A stretch of DNA of 64,000 bases from Virgibacillus necropolis. GTDB lineage: Bacteria > Bacillota > Bacilli > Bacillales > Amphibacillaceae. The notes beneath the pieces are model-generated. The model saw only the letters and a list, made by a program, of their open reading frames with translations. It searched no databases and was not told where the DNA came from. The stretch lies in assembly GCF_002224365.1 (NCBI RefSeq), contig NZ_CP022437.1, positions 1,922,001 to 1,986,000 on the forward strand, written 5' to 3'. Both the position numbers and the translations under genes were made by a program. Of the stretch, positions 8,551 through 49,978 are shown piece by piece. Each line of letters starts with the position of its first letter. Positions within the stretch are counted from its first letter, which is position 1.

Positions 8551-8870
8551 AATTAAAAATCTCTAAGGATTTGAGCTTCGCCATCCGCTACTAAAATGGG
8601 GCGAATGACGCATAATAATTAGTATATGAAAAAATGTTGAAGGTTCTAAGTACATGCTACTCTACTTATAAGAGAGGGATTTCCGTTGGCTGAGAGGAAT
8701 CCCACTTGAAAGAGTCATGGAAAGCTAAACTGGAGTATGGTTAATACCCATCGGTTTCAAACCGTTACCATGATTAAGTGATGAACAATTGATTGTTGTT
8801 GTTCATAATTAGGGTGGTACCGCGATAAAATCTCGTCCCTGCAATTTGCAGTGATGGGATTTTTTTGTTG
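8551..8870 (+). promoter_or_regulatory. T-box riboswitch (tRNA-Ala sensing) controlling alaS
   Basis: The T-box core AGGGTGGTACCGCG is at 8811-8824, followed by a terminator hairpin and T run ending near 8867. A stem III hairpin (AACAATTG...) precedes it. A candidate specifier codon GCT (alanine) lies at 8724-8726 in the context GGAAAGCTAAAC, which matches the downstream alanyl-tRNA synthetase gene. An F-box-like CCGTTA is at 8762. Uncharged tRNA-Ala would stabilise the antiterminator and allow alaS expression. Confidence 0.9.
8829..8867 (+). terminator. T-box-controlled intrinsic terminator
   Basis: A long hairpin with arms AAAATC and GATTTT, closed by CTGCA/TGCAG, and followed by seven T residues. 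It is the off state of the alaS T-box. Confidence 0.85.
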
Positions 8871-9046: not shown

Positions 9047-11689
9047 ATGGAACAATTATCATCTGCTGACGTAAGACAAATGTTTATTGACTTCTTTATA
9101 GAAAAAGGACATCGTGTGGAGCCAAGTGCATCACTAGTACCAAATGAAGATCCCACACTGTTGTGGATTAATAGTGGTGTTGCTACATTGAAAAAATACT
9201 TTGATGGACGCGTAATACCGGAAAATCCACGATTGGTAAATGCGCAAAAGTCGATTCGGACGAACGATATTGAAAATGTTGGTTTTACTGCACGTCACCA
9301 TACATTCTTTGAAATGCTCGGAAATTTTTCAATTGGTGATTACTTTAAAAAAGAAGCAATTGAATGGGGTTGGGAATTTTTAACGAGTGATAAATGGATA
9401 GGATTTGATCCAGAACTTTTAGCGGTAACCGTTCATCCAGAGGACGATGAAGCATTTGACATTTGGTTAAAGGACATTCAGATACCAGAAGAACGGATTA
9501 TCCGTTTAGAAGAAAATTTCTGGGATATCGGAGAAGGGCCAAGTGGACCAAATACAGAAATTTTCTATGATCGTGGGGAAAAGTATGGTAATGATCCAAA
9601 TGACCCGGAATTGTATCCAGGTGGAGAAAATGACCGGTACCTGGAAATATGGAATTTAGTATTTTCACAGTTTAATCACAATCCTGATGACACGTATACA
9701 CCATTACCAAAGAAAAATATTGATACAGGTATGGGACTAGAACGAATGATTTGTGTAATCCAGGATACCCCAACAAACTTTGAAACAGACCTATTTATGC
9801 CAATCATCAAAGAAGCAGAGGAATTTGCTAATGTAACGTATGGCAAAAGTAGTGAAAGTGATACCGCCTTTAAGGTAATTGCTGATCATATTCGGACCGT
9901 TACATTTGCTATCGGGGATAGTGCAATTCCTTCAAATGAGGGACGCGGCTATGTATTACGTAGATTGTTACGTCGAGCAGTTCGCTTTGCGAAACAAATT
10001 GGTATTGAAAAGCCATTCATGTATAAATTGGTTCCAATAGTAGGCGAAATCATGAAGGACTTTTATCCAGAGGTTTTAAAACAACAAGAACATATACAAA
10101 AGGTTGTCAAATTGGAAGAAGAACGTTTTCATGAAACATTGCATGATGGATTAGAGATACTTAATCATATTATAAATGAAGAGAAAGCTAAAGGGAGTAA
10201 AGTATTTCCAGGTAAAGAAGTTTTTCGCTTATATGACACTTATGGTTTTCCTAAGGAATTAACAGAGGAATATGTAGAGGAAGAAGGCTTCACAATTGAT
10301 GAGCAGGCTTTCGAAAAAGAAATGCAAAATCAACGTGACCGAGCTCGAAATGCACGACAAAAGGTTGATTCCATGCATGTTCAAGATGAAATCCTCAGCA
10401 AAGTAGATCATGCAAGTGATTTTGTTGGATATAATCACATTGAAACACAAACTACTATTACGCAGATGATTATCGGTAAAGAATTTGTTAATACGTTGAA
10501 AGCTGGGGATGAAGCGTTTGTATTTTTGCAAGAAACGCCATTTTATGCAGAGAGTGGTGGACAGGTTGCAGATAAAGGATGGATCTACACTGGAAATGCT
10601 TCCATGTATGTAGAAGATGTTCAAAAGGCACCTAAGGGGCAACATATTCATCGTGTTGTAGTAAAAGAGGGGGATTTTCAGCTTGAAGATCAAGTCTCAG
10701 CTACTGTAGATCGTAATTTCCGTAATGCTATTATTAAAAATCACACGGCTACACACTTGTTACATCAGGCTTTAAAAGACGTTCTAGGAGACCATGTTAA
10801 TCAAGCAGGATCGCTAGTGACGCCTGAAAGATTACGTTTTGACTTTTCCCACTTTGGTTCCATTTCAGATGAAGAAATAAAGCAGATTGAAACAAAGGTT
10901 AATGAAAAAATTTGGATGTCGCTACCACTTTTAATTGAACATAAAAAAATTAATGAAGCAAAAGAAATGGGTGCAATGGCCTTATTCGGCGAGAAATATG
11001 GCGATATTGTTCGGGTTGTTCAAGTTAGCGACTATAGTATCGAGCTTTGTGGTGGGTGTCATGTAAAGAATACAGCTGAAATTGGTTTATTTAAAATCAT
11101 GAATGAAACTGGAATTGGAGCGGGCACACGTCGCATTGAAGCAGTTTCTAGTAAACATGCTTACCATTTTATTAATAAAAAAATGGGAACACTAAAAATG
11201 ACAGGGCAATTATTAAAAACCAATCAAGAAGATGTACCTGAAAAAATTAAAGGAATGTTTAACGATATAAAGATAATGCAGAAAGAAAATGAATCTTTAC
11301 GTGCGAAGCTTTCTAATCTTGAAGCATCATCGATTCTAGAGGAAGTAAAAAATGTTAATTCGGTACCTTTATTAGCAGAAAAAGTGAATGTGAAGGATAT
11401 GAATCAATTGCGTGGAATGGTAGACGATATTAAACAAAAACTAGGAACTGGTATGATCCTATTAGCTACGGATAACGATGGAAAGGTCCAATTAGCTGCA
11501 GGTGTATCAAAGGATTTAATTGAAAAAGGTTTACATGCTGGTAAATTAATTAAAGGAGCTGCACAGCTTTGTGGTGGAGGCGGTGGAGGCCGTCCAGACA
11601 TGGCCCAAGCAGGTGGGAAAGACCCAAGTAAAATTAATGACGCCCTAGCATACGCTACTAATTATGTAAAAGAAACATTAAAAAACTAG
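9047..11689 (+). CDS. alaS: alanine--tRNA ligase
   Basis: Class II aminoacyl-tRNA synthetase of 880 residues, the usual bacterial length. The N-terminal catalytic domain begins with the family's [10 protein letters not shown] and [14 protein letters not shown] signatures. The editing domain carries zinc ligands HTATHLLH (about residues 566-570) and CGGCH (about 667-671). The C-Ala domain ends with a glycine-rich [15 protein letters not shown] segment. The ribosome site is AGGAGG. Expression is predicted to be controlled by the alanine T-box upstream. Confidence 0.97.
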
Positions 11690-19282: not shown

Positions 19283-19999
19283 TTATCCTTTTCTCCTGTT
19301 TGGATTTTCTTGTTTAAAGTACTCATGAAATACTTTCATTAAAGCACGCTTTTCAATACGTGACACATAGCTTCTAGATATGTTTAATTTTTTTGCAATT
19401 TCACGCTGTGTCATTTCTTGATAATTATTTAACCCATAGCGATAAATAATTACTTCTCTTTCTCTCTCGTCTAGGATTGAAAAGTATTTCTTCATCTTAT
19501 CGAGTTCCATATGTAATTGAATATACTCAATTACATCCTCTGATTCTGATTCTAAAATGTCGATTAAGCTTATTTCGTTTCCTTCTTTGTCTTGCCCAAT
19601 AGGGTCATGCAAGGAAACATCTTTTTTGACTTTTTTTAAGGCACGTAAATGCATCAAAATTTCATTTTCTATACATCGAGCTGCATAAGTGGCTAGCTTA
19701 GTTCCTTTATCAGGTGAATAGCTCTCAATCCCCTTTATTAATCCGATTGTTCCGATGGAAATTAAATCTTCCATATCCTCACCAGTATTTTCAAATTTCT
19801 TGACAATATGTGCAACTAAACGAAGGTTATGTTCAATTAACTTATTCCTAGCATTTTCGTCTCCGGTTTTCATTTCTTTAATATACTTGGCTTCGTCTTC
19901 TGGAGGAAGAGGCTGTGGAAAGGCATGGTTTTTTACATAGGATACAAAGAAGAGCGTTTCTTTAATTAACAAAGCAAGAACGCTTAAAATACTCGACAA
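19283..19999 (-). CDS. sigK: RNA polymerase sporulation sigma factor SigK (uninterrupted)
   Basis: The late mother-cell sigma factor, about 238 residues. A hydrophobic N-terminal pro-sequence (about the first 20 residues, ending before [14 protein letters not shown]) would be removed by SpoIVFB. Region 2 has [18 protein letters not shown] and [17 protein letters not shown]; region 4 has [24 protein letters not shown] chose the TTG at 19999, 8 bases after GGAGG; an in-frame GTG at 20008 overlaps that site. Unlike B. subtilis, the gene is intact with no skin-type insertion. Confidence 0.94.
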
Positions 20000-20102
20000 A
20001 TTATACACCTCCCTGAGAGTTTCTGCTAGGCAATGGCCTATAATTCATCTATATGAGCGAAGACGTACTTTTGTGTATGTCCTATGTAAGAAGGTAAAAA
20101 TA

Positions 20103-20137
20103 AAAAAAGCGACTTATCATTCAAGTCACTTTTTCCT
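20103..20137 (-). terminator. terminator of the mrp operon
   Basis: On the minus strand AAAAAGTGACTT pairs with AAGTCGCTTTTTT, overlapping the mrpG stop codon. Confidence 0.75.
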
Positions 20138-20512
20138 CGCTGTTTCTTTCATACTTTTTTGTAGTGCTTCTTCATATTCATCGTTTTGATTATTTGTTAA
20201 AGGCTTTACTTCTTTCCGATGTGCTGCTCTAGAAATCATATGCCCAGAAACCGGAACAGTTAGAAAAGTGAATAGTATCGCCAATAACAATTTGCCACTA
20301 ACAATCGAATGGGCTACATATAAATACAAAAATGTACCGATTAAAATTCCTGAAATACCGAGTGTTGAGGCTTTTGTCGCAGCATGTAAGCGAGTATATA
20401 CATCCGGAAAACGAACAACACCTATTGAGCTGGATAAAAGAAAAAACGAACCCGAAAGAATAAAAAAGCTGATGATAATGTTTAGGATGATATTAGTCCA
20501 AGTTTCGATCAA
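20126..20512 (-). CDS. mrpG: Na+/H+ antiporter Mrp subunit G
   Basis: A small subunit with three hydrophobic helices and the family segment GVVRFPDVYTRLHAATKASTLG. It is part of the hetero-oligomeric Mrp complex that exports sodium in exchange for protons. I chose a TTG at 20512 with AAGGGTG upstream, giving 128 residues and a 20-base overlap with mrpF; an open frame extends to 20542, so the start is uncertain. It is the last gene of the operon, with the terminator at its stop. Confidence 0.9.
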   Translation of the reverse strand: MIETWTNIILNIIISFFILSGSFFLLSSSIGVVRFPDVYTRLHAATKASTLGISGILIGTFLYLYVAHSIVSGKLLLAILFTFLTVPVSGHMISRAAHRKEVKPLTNNQNDEYEEALQKSMKETARKK

Positions 20513-20804
20513 TGATAACACCCTTTTCAAGAAATTTTGCAATAGCTAACGTACCGATAAATAACAGAATTCCTATCAACAAGATTACATCGTTAAAATT
20601 AGTGGAACTAAGTATAATAGATAGCAATGCTGCAAGTCCCATTAGGCCCATTCCAATTGTATCTAATGCAACAGCGCGATCTGCATTAGACGGCCCAATT
20701 AGCATTCGATATAGAAGCAAGACCAGTGAAATTGCAATACCAATCACAGACAAAATGGTAGAGAATTTAAGTATATGTTCTGAAAGATTTAGAAGTTCAT
20801 TCAT
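20493..20804 (-). CDS. mrpF: Na+/H+ antiporter Mrp subunit F
   Basis: A 103-residue protein with three transmembrane helices and the MrpF signature YRMLIGPSNADRAVALDTIG in the first cytoplasmic loop. The start ATG overlaps the mrpE stop (ATGA), which indicates translational coupling. The length is normal for the subunit. Confidence 0.93.
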   Translation of the reverse strand: MNELLNLSEHILKFSTILSVIGIAISLVLLLYRMLIGPSNADRAVALDTIGMGLMGLAALLSIILSSTNFNDVILLIGILLFIGTLAIAKFLEKGVIIDRNLD

Positions 20805-21277
20805 CGTGTAACCTCCATTATTGCTTTCTCAAAGGTATTTTTGATCTCAGCAATTGCTTCATCGATATCATCTATATCCATTGCATGTATATAAAGATGT
20901 GTATTGTCATCTGATATAGCAACTGTTAATGTACCTGGTGTTAATGAGATTAAGTTAGCTAGTAGGGTAATTTCCCAATTACTCTTTAATGTTGTTGGCA
21001 TCGCAAATATACCTGGTTCAATATCAAGCTTCGGTTTATAAACTAATTTAACAATATCCATATTAGCTGTAATTAATTCTTTACAAAACAGAAGAATTAG
21101 CTGAAGGATTTTGAAAAATCGATTCAAATAAAATGAATCAGGAATAAAACGATTCAGTAATAAAAGTAATAGGATTCCAAGAATGTATCCGCCAATAAAG
21201 CTTGCGGTATTATATGTTTCTTGTAAAAACATCCACATTACTGCAATCATTAAATTAATAACAATTTGAAATGTCAT
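20801..21277 (-). CDS. mrpE: Na+/H+ antiporter Mrp subunit E
   Basis: A 158-residue subunit with two or three N-terminal transmembrane helices and a soluble C-terminal domain containing LLANLISLTPGTLTVAISDD, the subunit's hallmark. It starts a few bases after mrpD and overlaps mrpF by 4 bases. Confidence 0.92.
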   Translation of the reverse strand: MTFQIVINLMIAVMWMFLQETYNTASFIGGYILGILLLLLLNRFIPDSFYLNRFFKILQLILLFCKELITANMDIVKLVYKPKLDIEPGIFAMPTTLKSNWEITLLANLISLTPGTLTVAISDDNTHLYIHAMDIDDIDEAIAEIKNTFEKAIMEVTR

Positions 21278-21283
21278 AGTAAT

Positions 21284-22765
21284 TTACTCCTTTAATACAG
21301 CATCAATATATACTTCGGGATTAAGTAAATAAGTCGAAATATCTTCAACTGTAGGATAAATGAACTCTGCACCTATTCCTAGAATAACAGAAAAGGATAA
21401 TAAAAAGATAACTGGTCCGATTAACCCTTTTGTAGATTTTCTATCCACTTCATATGCCGGATTTTTCTCACCCCAAAATCCCTTGATAAAGATTTTCATA
21501 ATAGAATATAAAATCAATAAGCTAGATAGCAAAGCAATGATAACAATGGCAATTTCATCATCAGCCAGTGCACCTTTTAATAATAATAATTTGCCTATGA
21601 ACCCACTGAAAGGCGGGATACCAGCAAGGATAAATGCTGCAACAAATAATAGCCATCCAAGTACCGGATAGTAATGGATTAAGCCACCCATTTTTCGTAA
21701 GTCAGTTGTACCAGCTACATAAGCAATTGCACCAACTAGTAGAAATAAAGCACACTTGATGATCATATCATGTAGAAGATAGTAGACTGAACCGCTCATC
21801 GCATCTTGATTAAATACACCAATACCCATAATGATAAAACCAATAGCTGGAATGATGTTATATGCAATAATGAGCTTTACATTATTTGTTGATAAGGCAC
21901 CAAGTATACCAAATACCATCGATAGACCAGCAATCCAAATAAATGCTTCATGTGTTAGGTCAAGTTTGTATACAAATATCAATGAAAATACTCGTAATAT
22001 GGAATATATACCTACTTTTGTTAGCAAGGCACCGAATAAAGCTGAAACAACCGGGTTTGGTACAACGTAAGATTTTGGCATCCAGTAATACAATGGAAAT
22101 AATGCAGCCTTCGTAGCAAAAACGAAGAATAATAAAGCTCCAATTGCAGTTAGTATTCCTTGTTGATCCGATTCTTGAACACGTTCAGCAATGTGGGCCA
22201 TATTTACTGTGCCGACAACGCCATATAAAAATGCAACAGTTGTTACAAATAATATAGAAGAGAAAAGGTTTATTAGTACATATTTAATGGATTCACGAAG
22301 TTGTATCTTGCCTCCACCTAAAACGATTAAAGCATAGGAAGCCATTAAAAGTACTTCAAAAAATACGAATAGATTGAATAGGTCTCCTGTTAAAAAAGCA
22401 CCTGAAACGCCTGTTATTAAGAAAAACATAAAAGAATAAAAATAATGTTGTTCTTGTTTTAAGGTCATGGAATGTGGTGCATAAAAAGCACAGGCCGTTA
22501 AAATAATATTCGTTGTTAATACAAGAATAATTGCTAACGGGTCGGCCACTAGAATAATACCATACGGGGCAGGCCAATTTCCCGTTTCCAGTATAATTGG
22601 ACCATTCGTTACAACTTGCCATGTAATATAGGCAACTACTGATAAACTAGTAATGGAAAAAACTTTCGTCAATGTTCTTACCAAATTTACCTTTTTTGGG
22701 AAAAAGGCCAGGATTACGCCAGCTAATAATGGTATGATGATTGGCAATACTGCTAAATTACTCAT
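21284..22765 (-). CDS. mrpD: Na+/H+ antiporter Mrp subunit D
   Basis: A 493-residue polytopic subunit (about 14 helices) homologous to the NuoM/NuoN proton-channel subunits of complex I. The conserved glutamate is in FFEVLLMASYALIVLGG and the central lysine in TKAALFPLYYWMPKSY. The start overlaps the end of mrpC by 8 bases. The length and motifs are normal, which suggests a functional subunit. Confidence 0.94.
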   Translation of the reverse strand: MSNLAVLPIIIPLLAGVILAFFPKKVNLVRTLTKVFSITSLSVVAYITWQVVTNGPIILETGNWPAPYGIILVADPLAIILVLTTNIILTACAFYAPHSMTLKQEQHYFYSFMFFLITGVSGAFLTGDLFNLFVFFEVLLMASYALIVLGGGKIQLRESIKYVLINLFSSILFVTTVAFLYGVVGTVNMAHIAERVQESDQQGILTAIGALLFFVFATKAALFPLYYWMPKSYVVPNPVVSALFGALLTKVGIYSILRVFSLIFVYKLDLTHEAFIWIAGLSMVFGILGALSTNNVKLIIAYNIIPAIGFIIMGIGVFNQDAMSGSVYYLLHDMIIKCALFLLVGAIAYVAGTTDLRKMGGLIHYYPVLGWLLFVAAFILAGIPPFSGFIGKLLLLKGALADDEIAIVIIALLSSLLILYSIMKIFIKGFWGEKNPAYEVDRKSTKGLIGPVIFLLSFSVILGIGAEFIYPTVEDISTYLLNPEVYIDAVLKE

Positions 22766-23096
22766 TTTCGTTACCCCTTAATTGATCCATGTTATCTGTT
22801 TCATTATCATTTGCGGCTCTATATGCTAACGCCAAAAGTAAGCTTGTAATACCAAAGCTGATTACAATGGATGTTAAAATTAACGCCTGTGGCAATGGAT
22901 CAGTGTAATCTGTAACCCCTTCTTTTAGAATAGGAGAACTTCCACGTTTTAACTTTCCCATGGTTAATATAAATAAATGCGCTCCATGGGACAGAAGGAC
23001 CGTCCCAATAATAATCCGTAGTAATTGCTTTTGAAGGAGGTTATAAATACCGGCAGCGAACAATAATCCAGCAAGAATACAAATGATTATTTCCAT
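22758..23096 (-). CDS. mrpC: Na+/H+ antiporter Mrp subunit C
   Basis: A 112-residue, three-helix subunit homologous to NuoK, with LLSHGAHLFILTMG and TDPLPQALILTSIVISFG. Its ATG abuts the mrpA stop codon with no spacer, and its GGAGG ribosome site lies inside the mrpA coding end. In the usual mrpABCDEFG order mrpB would lie between mrpA and mrpC; there is no room for it here. Confidence 0.93.
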   Translation of the reverse strand: MEIIICILAGLLFAAGIYNLLQKQLLRIIIGTVLLSHGAHLFILTMGKLKRGSSPILKEGVTDYTDPLPQALILTSIVISFGITSLLLALAYRAANDNETDNMDQLRGNENE

Positions 23097-25433
23097 TTAC
23101 TCCGCCTCCTTTTTTCGCTTAATTTTAACGAGACTATAGATCGCAAGTGCTGCAATTCCTAAAACGGTAATTTCAAATAGCGTATCAAGCCCACGCATAT
23201 CTACTAAGATTACATTAACAACGTTATGCCCACCACCAAGTGAGTAAGAGGTTTTTAAGAAGTAATCTGCAATAGAATCAAACCAATCACTACTGTGAGC
23301 GGAAATCCCGATCAAAGTCATCATCAAACCAAATCCTAGAGAAATAATAGCGTTAACTAATTTTGTTTTCCCCGATTCTTTAATAGCTTGTAATTTTGGT
23401 AAGTGGAAAAAGCATAGTAGGAATAATGCTACAGTTACCGTTTCAATAACCAGTTGTGTTAATGCTAAATCTGGTGCCCGATAAATAACAAACAGAAGCG
23501 AAACGCCGTATCCAACAACACCTAAGATAAGAATCGCAGCTATATTATTCTTGGCAAAAATAGTACCAAGTGCTGCAATAATCATAACGACTACCACAGA
23601 AACTTCTACAACAGTAACATCTGCGAGATCATCAAATTGTATGTTTAATCCACCTGTTAACGCCATTATAGTTAAAGTGACGATCGCAGTAGTACTAAAA
23701 ATAATGGCTACATAAAGTCTTAGCGAACCATTCATGTAAAAGCCTGTAACGTTATTCGCGTACACATCCAATTTGCTTACACTTATATCGTATATTTTAT
23801 TTAAGCTCATTCTACCAGGTAAGAAACTATATACTTTACGCCATTTTTTACGTGTAAGGAATAATAGTGTTCCAACCCCTACTACGATTAAGGACATGAT
23901 AAATGCAGGGTAGTTCCATCCATGCCAGTATTTAACATGTTTTTCAATTGACTCACCTTTGACTGCTTCAGCCGCATGCGCTAAAAAGGTCCCATTAACT
24001 AAGTTAGGAAATAGCCCAATGATAATAACTAGTGCTACTAGGATGATGGGTGAAAGCAACATACCGATTGGAGCTTCGTGAGGCTTTTTAGGTAGACTCT
24101 TTTCTTTTTTCCTACCTGCAAATACACCAAAAAAGAAGTACATCGAATAGACAAATGTAAATATACTACCAAAAACGGCTAGCGCAGGAATGATATCAAT
24201 TAGAAAATTAGCAAACGCCCCGACATTTTCATTTAAACCGAGACTAGATTCGAAAAATAACTCTTTACTATAAAATCCATTTAAAAATGGTAGGGGAACA
24301 CCAGCCATTGAAAATGTACCAAATAATGCTAGCGTAGCGGTAATTGGCATAAATGTCAGTAAACCACCTAATTTACGGATATCACGAGTTCCGGTTTCAT
24401 GATCAACAATACCTGCAACCATGAATAAGCTACCTTTAAAAGTTGCGTGATTTAGAATGTGGAAAACAGCTGCAAATACCGCTACTTTCGTACCAAACCC
24501 AAGCATGGCCATGATCATACCTAACTGACTTATTGTGGAAAATGCAAGTATAGCCTTTAAATCCGTCTGCTTTACGGCCATATAAGACCCCCAGCATAAC
24601 GTAACGATACCTGCGATACTTACAATAATAAAGAACCATTCATAGCTAGCGAAAATAGGTGAAAACCGTGCTACCAAAAATAGTCCAGCTTTTACCATGG
24701 TTGCTGAATGAAGATACGCACTAACTGGAGTTGGTGCTTCCATCGCATCTGGTAACCAAATATGGAATGGGAATTGAGCAGACTTGGTAAATGCACCGAG
24801 TAATATAAACCCTAGTATTAATGGAAGATAGGAACTTTCTAAAATAACATCCTTTTGATCAATCATTGCCTGGATACTTGTTGTATCTGTAATGACAGAT
24901 AATAGAATGAATCCACCAAACATACTTAATCCACCAAAAATAGTAATAAGCATAGATTTAAGCGCACCATAGCGAGAACGCTCATTAAAATGCCAATAAC
25001 CAATTAATAAGAAGGAGGATATAGACGTTAGCTCCCAAAATGTATACATAACAAAAACGTTATCTGACAGGACAACACCAAGCATTCCCGCCATAAATAA
25101 AATTAAATAAACATAAAAATGTCCTAATCGTTCCGTTTTATCTAAGTAATAGATAGAGTAAAGGACAACTAACGCTCCAATTCCACTAATTAATAATACA
25201 AAAAGTAAACTTAATCCATCTAAGTAAAAATCAAAATTGATGGATAGGGAAGGGATCCAGCTGTAGGTTTGCCTGACAGGTGAAAAGGTAGAACCAAGAA
25301 ACTGAATAAAATAAAGAAAGATTACGAAAGGAACAAAAAAGACAACTATTCCTGTATGTATTTTATGTTTGATTTTGCTTAAGAATGGAATTAAGCAGGC
25401 AATTAGAAGTGGAAGTAATACTGCAAAAATCAT
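23097..25433 (-). CDS. mrpA: Na+/H+ antiporter Mrp subunit A
   Basis: The large 778-residue subunit, homologous to NuoL. The antiporter core shows FWELTSISSFLLIGYWHF, SAQFPFHIWLPDAMEAPTPVSAYLHSATMVKAG and a HILNHATFKG motif. The C-terminal extension has the MrpA-specific segments APDLALTQLVIETVTVALFLLCFFHLP and GGGHNVVNVILVDMRGLDTLFEI. This end matches the normal MrpA C-terminus and is not a fused MrpB. It is the first gene of a six-gene operon lacking mrpB. Confidence 0.95.
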   Translation of the reverse strand: MIFAVLLPLLIACLIPFLSKIKHKIHTGIVVFFVPFVIFLYFIQFLGSTFSPVRQTYSWIPSLSINFDFYLDGLSLLFVLLISGIGALVVLYSIYYLDKTERLGHFYVYLILFMAGMLGVVLSDNVFVMYTFWELTSISSFLLIGYWHFNERSRYGALKSMLITIFGGLSMFGGFILLSVITDTTSIQAMIDQKDVILESSYLPLILGFILLGAFTKSAQFPFHIWLPDAMEAPTPVSAYLHSATMVKAGLFLVARFSPIFASYEWFFIIVSIAGIVTLCWGSYMAVKQTDLKAILAFSTISQLGMIMAMLGFGTKVAVFAAVFHILNHATFKGSLFMVAGIVDHETGTRDIRKLGGLLTFMPITATLALFGTFSMAGVPLPFLNGFYSKELFFESSLGLNENVGAFANFLIDIIPALAVFGSIFTFVYSMYFFFGVFAGRKKEKSLPKKPHEAPIGMLLSPIILVALVIIIGLFPNLVNGTFLAHAAEAVKGESIEKHVKYWHGWNYPAFIMSLIVVGVGTLLFLTRKKWRKVYSFLPGRMSLNKIYDISVSKLDVYANNVTGFYMNGSLRLYVAIIFSTTAIVTLTIMALTGGLNIQFDDLADVTVVEVSVVVVMIIAALGTIFAKNNIAAILILGVVGYGVSLLFVIYRAPDLALTQLVIETVTVALFLLCFFHLPKLQAIKESGKTKLVNAIISLGFGLMMTLIGISAHSSDWFDSIADYFLKTSYSLGGGHNVVNVILVDMRGLDTLFEITVLGIAALAIYSLVKIKRKKEAE

Positions 25434-26152: not shown

Positions 26153-26350
26153 ATGAGAAATATGAAAGAATTTGTCGAACGGTTTTTCGAATTATCACCG
26201 TATTTTGCTATAGATAGGGCTTTCATGGAAAAGACAAATTTCGCTAGCACTTATATATGTGTTAAGTTATTATAGGATTACTATATAATAGGACATTCCA
26301 TAAAGAGGAAAAGTAAAACTAGGTTTGACAATAACAAAGAGGTGTATACG

Positions 26351-26866
26351 TTGTTAAAGAAATTTTTACCAAATGAACATGTGAAAAGTGTTTTTGATAT
26401 TCAACCTGCTTCACTTAAACAAAGAGGAATTAAAGGTGTCATAACAGACCTGGATAATACGTTAGTGGCTTGGGATGTTAAGGATGCAACCCCAGAAATT
26501 GTAAACTGGTTTAAACAAATGAAGGAATATGATATTAAAGTAATGATTATTTCCAATAATAAACAAGAGCGTGTAAAAATCTTTTCGGAACCACTTGATA
26601 CACCTTTCGTATTTAGTGCACGAAAACCTTTGAGTCGCGCTTTTAAGGTAGCCGCAAAACAAATGGGAATAAAAAAAGAGAATATCGTTGTAATTGGTGA
26701 TCAACTTTTAACCGATGTATTAGGAGGGAACTTTGCGGGTTTTTACACAATACTTGTCCTTCCTATCGTACAAACCGATGGAAAAGTAACGCGGTTTAAT
26801 CGTAAAATAGAACGACGAATACTAAACTATATGAGAAGAAAAGGTAAGATAACTTGGGAGGAGTAA
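26351..26866 (+). CDS. yqeG: YqeG family HAD IIIA-type phosphatase
   Basis: A 171-residue HAD-superfamily protein. Motif I is ITDLDNTLVAWD (the nucleophile aspartate and the +2 aspartate), motif II IISNN, and motif III/IV KPLSRAF plus VVIGDQLLTDVLGG. Substrates are unknown; related enzymes include phosphatidylglycerophosphate phosphatases. The start is a TTG at 26351, which gives MLKKFLP as in relatives and lies 6 bases after GAGGTG. It heads the ribosome-assembly and nadD operon, and its stop almost touches the yqeH start. Confidence 0.88.
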   Translation: MLKKFLPNEHVKSVFDIQPASLKQRGIKGVITDLDNTLVAWDVKDATPEIVNWFKQMKEYDIKVMIISNNKQERVKIFSEPLDTPFVFSARKPLSRAFKVAAKQMGIKKENIVVIGDQLLTDVLGGNFAGFYTILVLPIVQTDGKVTRFNRKIERRILNYMRRKGKITWEE

Positions 26867-48381: not shown

Positions 48382-48719
48382 AAGTGCGTGTTCAAAAGTC
48401 GCCGAATTAGAAATAAGGTCGACAAAGAGCGCAACGTCCTCGAAAATAAAAAACAATTTTCTTCGTGCGATGTTTTTTCAGGGGGAGCTTTCCTTATCCT
48501 GTTGCAAAGTCGACATTAGCACGGCCTGTGCGTCAAGGTCGAGGCACGAGAGTTTTGAGGACCGGACTTGCGCGTGTTGTGCTGACTTCTACGTTGTCCA
48601 CAGGACGTGGACGGTTTTAGTAGAAGTTCCTCTATGTCCTTAATACGTGAGGACCGGAAAAACCGAGCAACGAAGAGATTCGCCATTTATCATTTGGTGA
48701 CTTTTTGAACATCCTCTAT
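48382..48719. repeat. long copy of family A with two insertions
   Basis: The ends match 25494-25651 (AAGTGCGTGTTCAAAAGTCGCCG at left in part, GGTGACTTTTTGAACATCCTCT at right). Relative to the short copy it carries two extra blocks. The first is flanked by GTCGAC and contains CTTCGTGCGATG. The second is a hairpin, ACTTCTAC/GTAGAAGT enclosing GTCCAC/GTGGAC. It occupies most of the dnaJ-prmA gap. Confidence 0.85.
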
Positions 48720-49762: not shown

Positions 49763-49978
49763 CCTGTTCAAGATAAAGGAAAGCCAATTAAGGACGTTCG
49801 ACTAAGAGCGCCACGTCCTGTGGCAACGTCGAACTACCCTACATCCTCGAAAAAGAATACCGCTTTTTCTTCGTGCGATGTTTCTCAGGGAAGTATTCCT
49901 TGTCCTGTAGGGCATTGAGCTTGACTTATTGAAGATCAGGGAGGGAAGTCCACTAGTTGTTGGTCGCTGTAGCTAGCC
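49718..49978. repeat. structured intergenic element, family B (copy 2)
   Basis: A 261-base element sharing its ends with 18724-19037 (AAGAAAAGCG, ACGTATGGACTG; GGGAAGTCCACTAGT, AGCTAG). Its centre (49842-49906) matches the first insertion of the A element at 48426-48501, with CTTCGTGCGATGTTT in common. The left end lies inside prmA and the right end is 35 bases before rsmE. Confidence 0.82.

Follow-up and report, generated by a model that had tools for sequence, protein, structure and literature searches.

A six-gene mrp operon without mrpB

How does a bacterium whose mrp operon lacks one subunit gene come by the missing protein? The question is raised by an operon in the window, that is, the whole 64,000-nucleotide stretch of Virgibacillus necropolis DNA analyzed here (contig NZ_CP022437.1, positions 1,922,001 to 1,986,000). 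On its minus strand, between 20126 and 25433, the list of open reading frames (ORFs) of the window holds mrpACDEFG, six genes in regular order, just as a preliminary description made from the sequence alone had read them. The best explanation, which we consider very probable, is an ordinary seven-subunit Mrp-type Na+/H+ antiporter with its genes at two unlinked loci. This explanation rests on gene positions, on trees with one origin, on joint retention and loss, and on the conservation of core residues in MrpB. The features of the operon are as follows (aa, amino acids).

23097..25433, minus strand: mrpA, 778 aa; NCBIfam Na+/H+ antiporter subunit A, 1055.6 bits (cut-off 1028)
22758..23096, minus strand: mrpC, 112 aa; NCBIfam subunit C, 158.1 bits (cut-off 127)
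21284..22765, minus strand: mrpD, 493 aa; ORF, Pfam and NCBIfam
20801..21277, minus strand: mrpE, 158 aa; ORF and Pfam
20493..20804, minus strand: mrpF, 103 aa; ORF and Pfam
20126..20542, minus strand: mrpG, 138 aa, with a TTG start in the ORF list; ORF and Pfam
23094..23113, minus strand: mrpA-mrpC junction; TAA abuts ATG, with the ribosome site within mrpA

The mrpA stop codon (23097-23099) directly abuts the mrpC ATG (23094-23096), and the mrpC ribosome site, of the AAAGGAGG type, lies inside the 3' end of mrpA. No remnant of mrpB was found at the junction (23094..23113). Pfam placed MbhD at residues 615-680 and MbhE at residues 694-771 of the 778-residue MrpA and detected no MnhB domain in this protein, so B is not fused to MrpA. 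An A-B fusion was accordingly ruled out as a candidate, since the protein ends with MbhE. The preliminary description had reported the abutting codons, the embedded ribosome site, the absence of mrpB without remnant and the normal, unfused MrpA C-terminus, and each of these points was borne out.

It had also proposed comparing this junction in relatives, and there we found the same arrangement: the mrpA stop lay -1 to +7 nucleotides from the mrpC start, with no MrpB-like ORF there, in 80 of 80 loci. These were the best 80 of 221 candidates, taken around the top MrpC matches in named genomes, and their mrpC starts were placed by homology to the MrpC of the window. Named loci with the six-gene MrpC type include Virgibacillus, Lentibacillus, Oceanobacillus, Gracilibacillus, Halobacillus and Pontibacillus.

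An unlinked mrpB in the same genome

The genome to which the window belongs consists of one contig (C1) of 4.34 Mb. The whole-genome search with the PF04039 profile, suggested earlier as a check, found two MnhB genes, with matches at C1:2423471-2423842 and C1:1602511-1602885. The first match lies in the following gene.

C1:2423438-2423866 (L003:8439-8867), minus strand: unlinked mrpB, 142 aa, outside the window; matches PF04039

This gene lies about 479 kb from the operon of the window, between ccdA and ccdC, and its flanking genes match the DsbD_TM and CcdC families of Pfam. The encoded MrpB scored 122.2 bits against PF04039 (cut-off 22.5) over profile positions 1-126 of 127, and it aligned with 7qru_B over 138 residues (E 1.5e-41), an alignment in which its PGGGF stretch is retained. 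In the accessible part of PMC9568556, this stretch is strictly conserved and is located at a putative sodium exit tunnel of the B. pseudofirmus structure.

The second match is part of a complete operon, A-B-C-D-E-F-G, near C1:1.60 Mb (L004), which the genome thus carries in addition to the split set. The MrpB encoded there is only distantly related to the unlinked one, with 46% identity. Among the three alternatives offered in the preliminary description, an mrpB elsewhere and a second Mrp operon are therefore both realized at once; the third, a six-subunit variant, is disfavoured on the evidence that follows.

Joint presence of the two parts

We compared family, order and class samples, all drawn evenly from larger groups. 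In the family sample (146 genomes), identity limits of at least 71% for MrpC and at least 61% for MrpB were taken from bimodal match lists that are truncated at the weak end. An MrpC of the window type (71-100% identity) was present in 104 genomes and an MrpB of the unlinked type in 102; both occurred in 101 genomes, MrpC only in 3, MrpB only in 1 and neither in 41 (Fisher p 1.7e-31, a statistic that ignores relatedness). One of the three genomes with MrpC only (G044) has an mrpB beside ccdA that is cut by a contig end, another (G071) has mrpB in place but frameshifted, and the third is 80% complete; in the genome with MrpB only (G144), mrpC of the six-gene type is in two frameshifted pieces. 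Because the unlinked mrpB was found automatically in 101 of 104 genomes with this MrpC type, the six-subunit variant is disfavoured.

The six-gene mrpC and the unlinked mrpB were neighbours in none of the 101 genomes, and where they shared a contig (41 genomes), 256 kb to 3.1 Mb separated them in linear coordinates. Other MrpCs, at 47-62% identity, were present among the matches listed; 21 such loci were read (L269 and L271-L290), and mrpB lay between mrpA and mrpC in all 21. An unlinked MrpB also matched in 50 of 50 genomes reached via the named loci (49 full-length at 62-79% identity, 1 a piece at a contig end), a set that overlaps the family sample, as recurring identical coordinates indicate, and is not independent of it.

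In the order sample (120 genomes), mrpB adjoined mrpC for 79 MrpC matches, and the split was found in 33 genomes of 13 families, one of which (f8) shows it in 1 of its 2 genomes. Identity to the MrpC of the window was at least 65% for split MrpCs and at most 66% for mrpB-adjacent ones. The MrpC matches outside the pattern were those of G249 (54%) and G149 (32%, weak, with no unpaired MrpB). In the class sample (111 genomes), MrpC adjoined 58 of 59 MrpB matches, the exception being the unlinked gene of the genome under study, and 2 of 60 MrpC matches had no adjoining MrpB, namely that of the window and that of G348 (35%, weak).

Two side observations concern these samples. G249 (family f35; L191, L190) has mrpACDEFG beside yqeG-like and sigma-factor genes; its six-gene operon is nested among seven-gene operons in the tree and is apparently a separate second case. 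Its sole MnhB-like protein (PF04039, 81.9 bits) is encoded on another contig between peptidase S9 and GTPase genes, is about 29% identical to the unlinked MrpB and has a very long branch. In family f50 of the class sample (G314, G337, G355, G369, G383, G396 and G406), the MnhB match falls within an open frame of 955-1069 aa immediately ahead of mrpC, an indication of a Group 2-type A-B fusion inside the class.

Genomic sites of the two parts

Among 15 split loci from 13 families, 14 had mrpB after ccdA and ahead of ccdC; the block of the remaining one (G220, L185) no longer contains ccdA but retains both mrpB and ccdC. Further family loci had mrpB between ccdA and ccdC in 30 of 30 cases. When 30 of the named loci were read, 26 had both ccdA and ccdC in the stretch and 4 lacked ccdA or ccdC there. 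The gap between ccdA and mrpB measured 15-117 nucleotides, and 172 nucleotides in the genome of the window; a short gap would fit cotranscription.

The six-gene operon also occupies a recurrent site, marked in the window by two neighbours.

26342..26866, plus strand: yqeG-like gene, with a homologue at the split loci
19283..20008, minus strand: sigK, sporulation sigma factor; NCBIfam SigK, 389.8 bits (cut-off 252)

All 15 split loci had a yqeG-like gene next to the six-gene operon, and in 8 of the 15 fetched stretches a sigK-like gene flanked the operon on its other side. As a side observation, the loci L251 (G218) and L252 (G179) of family f35 hold seven-gene operons of two different clades at the yqeG-like/sigma-factor site, and several types of Mrp have thus occupied this site.

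Joint loss and replacement in place

We then examined the ccd block in the 42 family genomes in which automatic search found no MrpC of the six-gene type. The block was readable in 22, and in 21 of these ccdA was followed by ccdC without mrpB; in the remaining one (G063), a YneK-like gene is next to ccdA, and ccdC is missing along with mrpB. Two genomes fall outside the 22 readable loci: in G143 the CcdA fetched lies elsewhere, and in G144 mrpB is present. On the best tree of ccd-block proteins, from 30 genomes that have mrpB and 22 that lack it, the presence of mrpB changes at least 9 times; the tree counts events, and with identical labels for both traits it provides no separate test of association. 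Both states are held within six genera (g6, g13, g14, g26, g29 and g38).

When the Mrp loci were read in 19 genomes without the six-gene operon, 8 had a seven-gene operon beside the yqeG-like gene, with sigK on the other side in 7 of the 8. In G138, relics of mrpE, mrpF and mrpG (L281:8695-9852) lie between the incoming seven-gene operon and sigK. The relic MrpE falls with its six-gene counterparts from the window, G006 and G132 (support 97), the nearest being that of G132, from the same genus; the ccdA-ccdC block of G138 (L218) has no mrpB. A shared function would predict just this: the unlinked B disappears when an operon arrives that carries a B of its own. The gene mrpB follows the mrp operon rather than ccdA, because it is missing from intact ccdA-ccdC blocks where the six-gene operon is missing and was kept in G220 without ccdA.

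Several points weigh against reading the two loci as one system. The genomes are related, and only 5 presence changes are forced by well-supported branches. In eighteen of the 42 genomes, the only CcdA is a distant one (37-47% identity); these do not bear on joint loss. The 8 in-place operons form one clade with that of G137 (support 100) and may therefore go back to few events. For 60 of the 101 genomes with both parts, mrpC and mrpB are on different draft contigs and their distance is unreadable. Finally, G106, the 80%-complete genome, has the operon type without an unlinked mrpB.

Origin and constraint

In the MrpB tree, the unlinked proteins of 16 genomes grouped together (98/97), apart from 26 in-operon MrpBs and from the divergent copy of G249. 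Likewise, the joined ACDEFG proteins of the same 16 genomes formed one group (Shimodaira-Hasegawa-like approximate likelihood ratio test, 100) against 46 seven-gene operons and G249. Both trees are unrooted, and the ACDEFG tree was made by a quick method without bootstrap; repeating it without the G138 row that holds the relic MrpF gave the same result. The split arrangement is old, and the trees support a single origin of both parts. The simplest reading would be that mrpB departed once from a seven-gene operon, because other sampled families and orders keep mrpB in place.

Mean pairwise identity was 67% for MrpB, 73% for MrpC and 63% for MrpA among the 16 split genomes, and 70%, 80% and 69%, respectively, among 16 in-operon genomes. 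Of 31 columns conserved in in-operon MrpB, 27 were identical in unlinked MrpB and none had a different conserved residue. The same test gave 32 of 40 identical and none replaced for MrpC, and 213 of 264 identical and 4 replaced for MrpA.

A proposed two-locus antiporter and its alternatives

We propose that mrpB moved out of the operon to a position behind ccdA in an ancestor of these families, and that mrpC came to lie directly after mrpA. The MrpB produced at the ccd locus, where its gene is presumably transcribed with ccdA, would join the Mrp complex in the membrane, probably assemble with the other six subunits and probably be needed for transport. In the accessible parts of the reports on published structures (PMC7419157, PMC9568556), MrpB lines the row that MrpC, MrpF, MrpG and the C-terminal domain of MrpA form, and it touches MrpE in the other protomer. 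According to the available text of PMC5703873, all Mrp subunits are generally required, with two exceptions named.

An addition to this proposal is that the relocation was kept for control: MrpB from the ccdA-ccdC unit would be a limiting, separately regulated subunit that sets the amount of Mrp complex or dimer by respiratory state. We hold this to be unlikely.

It is less likely still that the six-subunit Mrp works without MrpB and that the unlinked protein has another role, for example with CcdA in cytochrome c maturation. An operon without B and an mrpB only 15-172 nucleotides behind ccdA would suit such a division, and PMC5703873, in the part available, names two Mrp systems in which MrpA alone sustains antiport. 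Yet intact ccdA-ccdC blocks have no mrpB when the operon is absent (21 of 22), G220 (L185) keeps mrpB though ccdA is gone from its block, and the conserved core of unlinked MrpB is that of in-operon MrpB.

Supply of MrpB to the six-gene operon by a second, complete Mrp operon has a very low probability. Such an operon exists in the genome of the window (L004), with a MrpB that is distant (46% identical) from the unlinked one; however, the unlinked gene is the sole PF04039 match in 73 of the 101 split family genomes, and 32 of the 33 split genomes of the order sample have just one MrpB and one MrpC (E 1e-10), the exception being the genome of the window. As a general rule, cross-supply was rejected, since most split genomes have a single MnhB. 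We found nothing in favour of an assembly error or of a recent deletion that removed mrpB locally; the probability of either is negligible with the same junction in 80 of 80 named loci and the split in 13 families, and the assembly error allowed for in the preliminary description is excluded because the junction is conserved.

Other features of the loci

At the ccd locus, one frame in L003:8244-8438, between mrpB and ccdC, resembles by eye the end of a response-regulator gene, and a complete Response_reg gene occupies the mrpB-ccdC position in the four relatives tested. A TnpB-like ORF (L003:1493-2683) lies near this locus, its NCBIfam TnpB score of 74.1 bits being below the curated cut-off of 100. 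At both the mrp operon and the ccd-mrpB locus, shuffled sequences had more promoter-like sites than the real ones, and L003 7600-10300 contained no terminator-like site. For neighbouring genes, we use the presumed names tkt, sirA, yneF, yneK, acnA, tlpA and yqeG.

Rfam at gathering thresholds gave three matches in the window, L003 and L004, none at any mrp gene: a T-box leader at window positions 8628-8843, upstream of an ORF at 9047 that we take to encode alanyl-tRNA synthetase, and two Bacillaceae-1 RNAs at 48569-48636 and 49786-49847.

Comparison with known Mrp systems

Read gene by gene, the pump looks incomplete in many halophilic Bacillales. If the split reading is true, expression of the operon alone, or a screen of single genomic fragments for Na+/H+ antiport, would be expected to miss its activity. 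The Mrp complex is related to respiratory complex I, and the arrangement would be a natural example of an obligate membrane complex encoded at two loci. Thirteen families of the order sample retain it, and it would allow MrpB to be deleted or retuned with the other six genes untouched. Replacement in place by a seven-gene operon together with loss of the unlinked mrpB would amount to a natural test of subunit dependence. By titles and abstract openings, we found no description of an unlinked mrpB in the open-access literature.

Group 1 Mrp systems are represented by structures 7QRU (B. pseudofirmus) and 6Z16 (Anoxybacillus flavithermus); Group 2, with fused A-B, occurs in Pseudomonas aeruginosa and Vibrio cholerae and is represented by structure 7D3U of Dietzia. 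The available part of PMC5703873 sorts Mrp systems into clusters of seven genes, clusters of six with A and B fused, and irregular ones, and it records two mrp clusters in Oceanobacillus iheyensis. As in Group 1 (mrpABCDEFG), all seven subunit families are encoded separately here and the MrpA C-terminus is normal; unlike Group 1, mrpB is unlinked between ccdA and ccdC instead of lying between mrpA and mrpC. The six genes in the order A-C-D-E-F-G recall Group 2 (mrpA'CDEFG), whereas the MrpA of the window has no MnhB domain and MrpB is a separate protein. With Group 3, from cyanobacteria, the system shares a departure from the standard gene set and order; in the accessible text of PMC5703873, however, the Group 3 subunits are all described within the cluster, while here MrpB is unlinked and the other six are in regular order. 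The system thus fits the cluster definition of no Mrp group, because it has Group 1 content with one gene unlinked.

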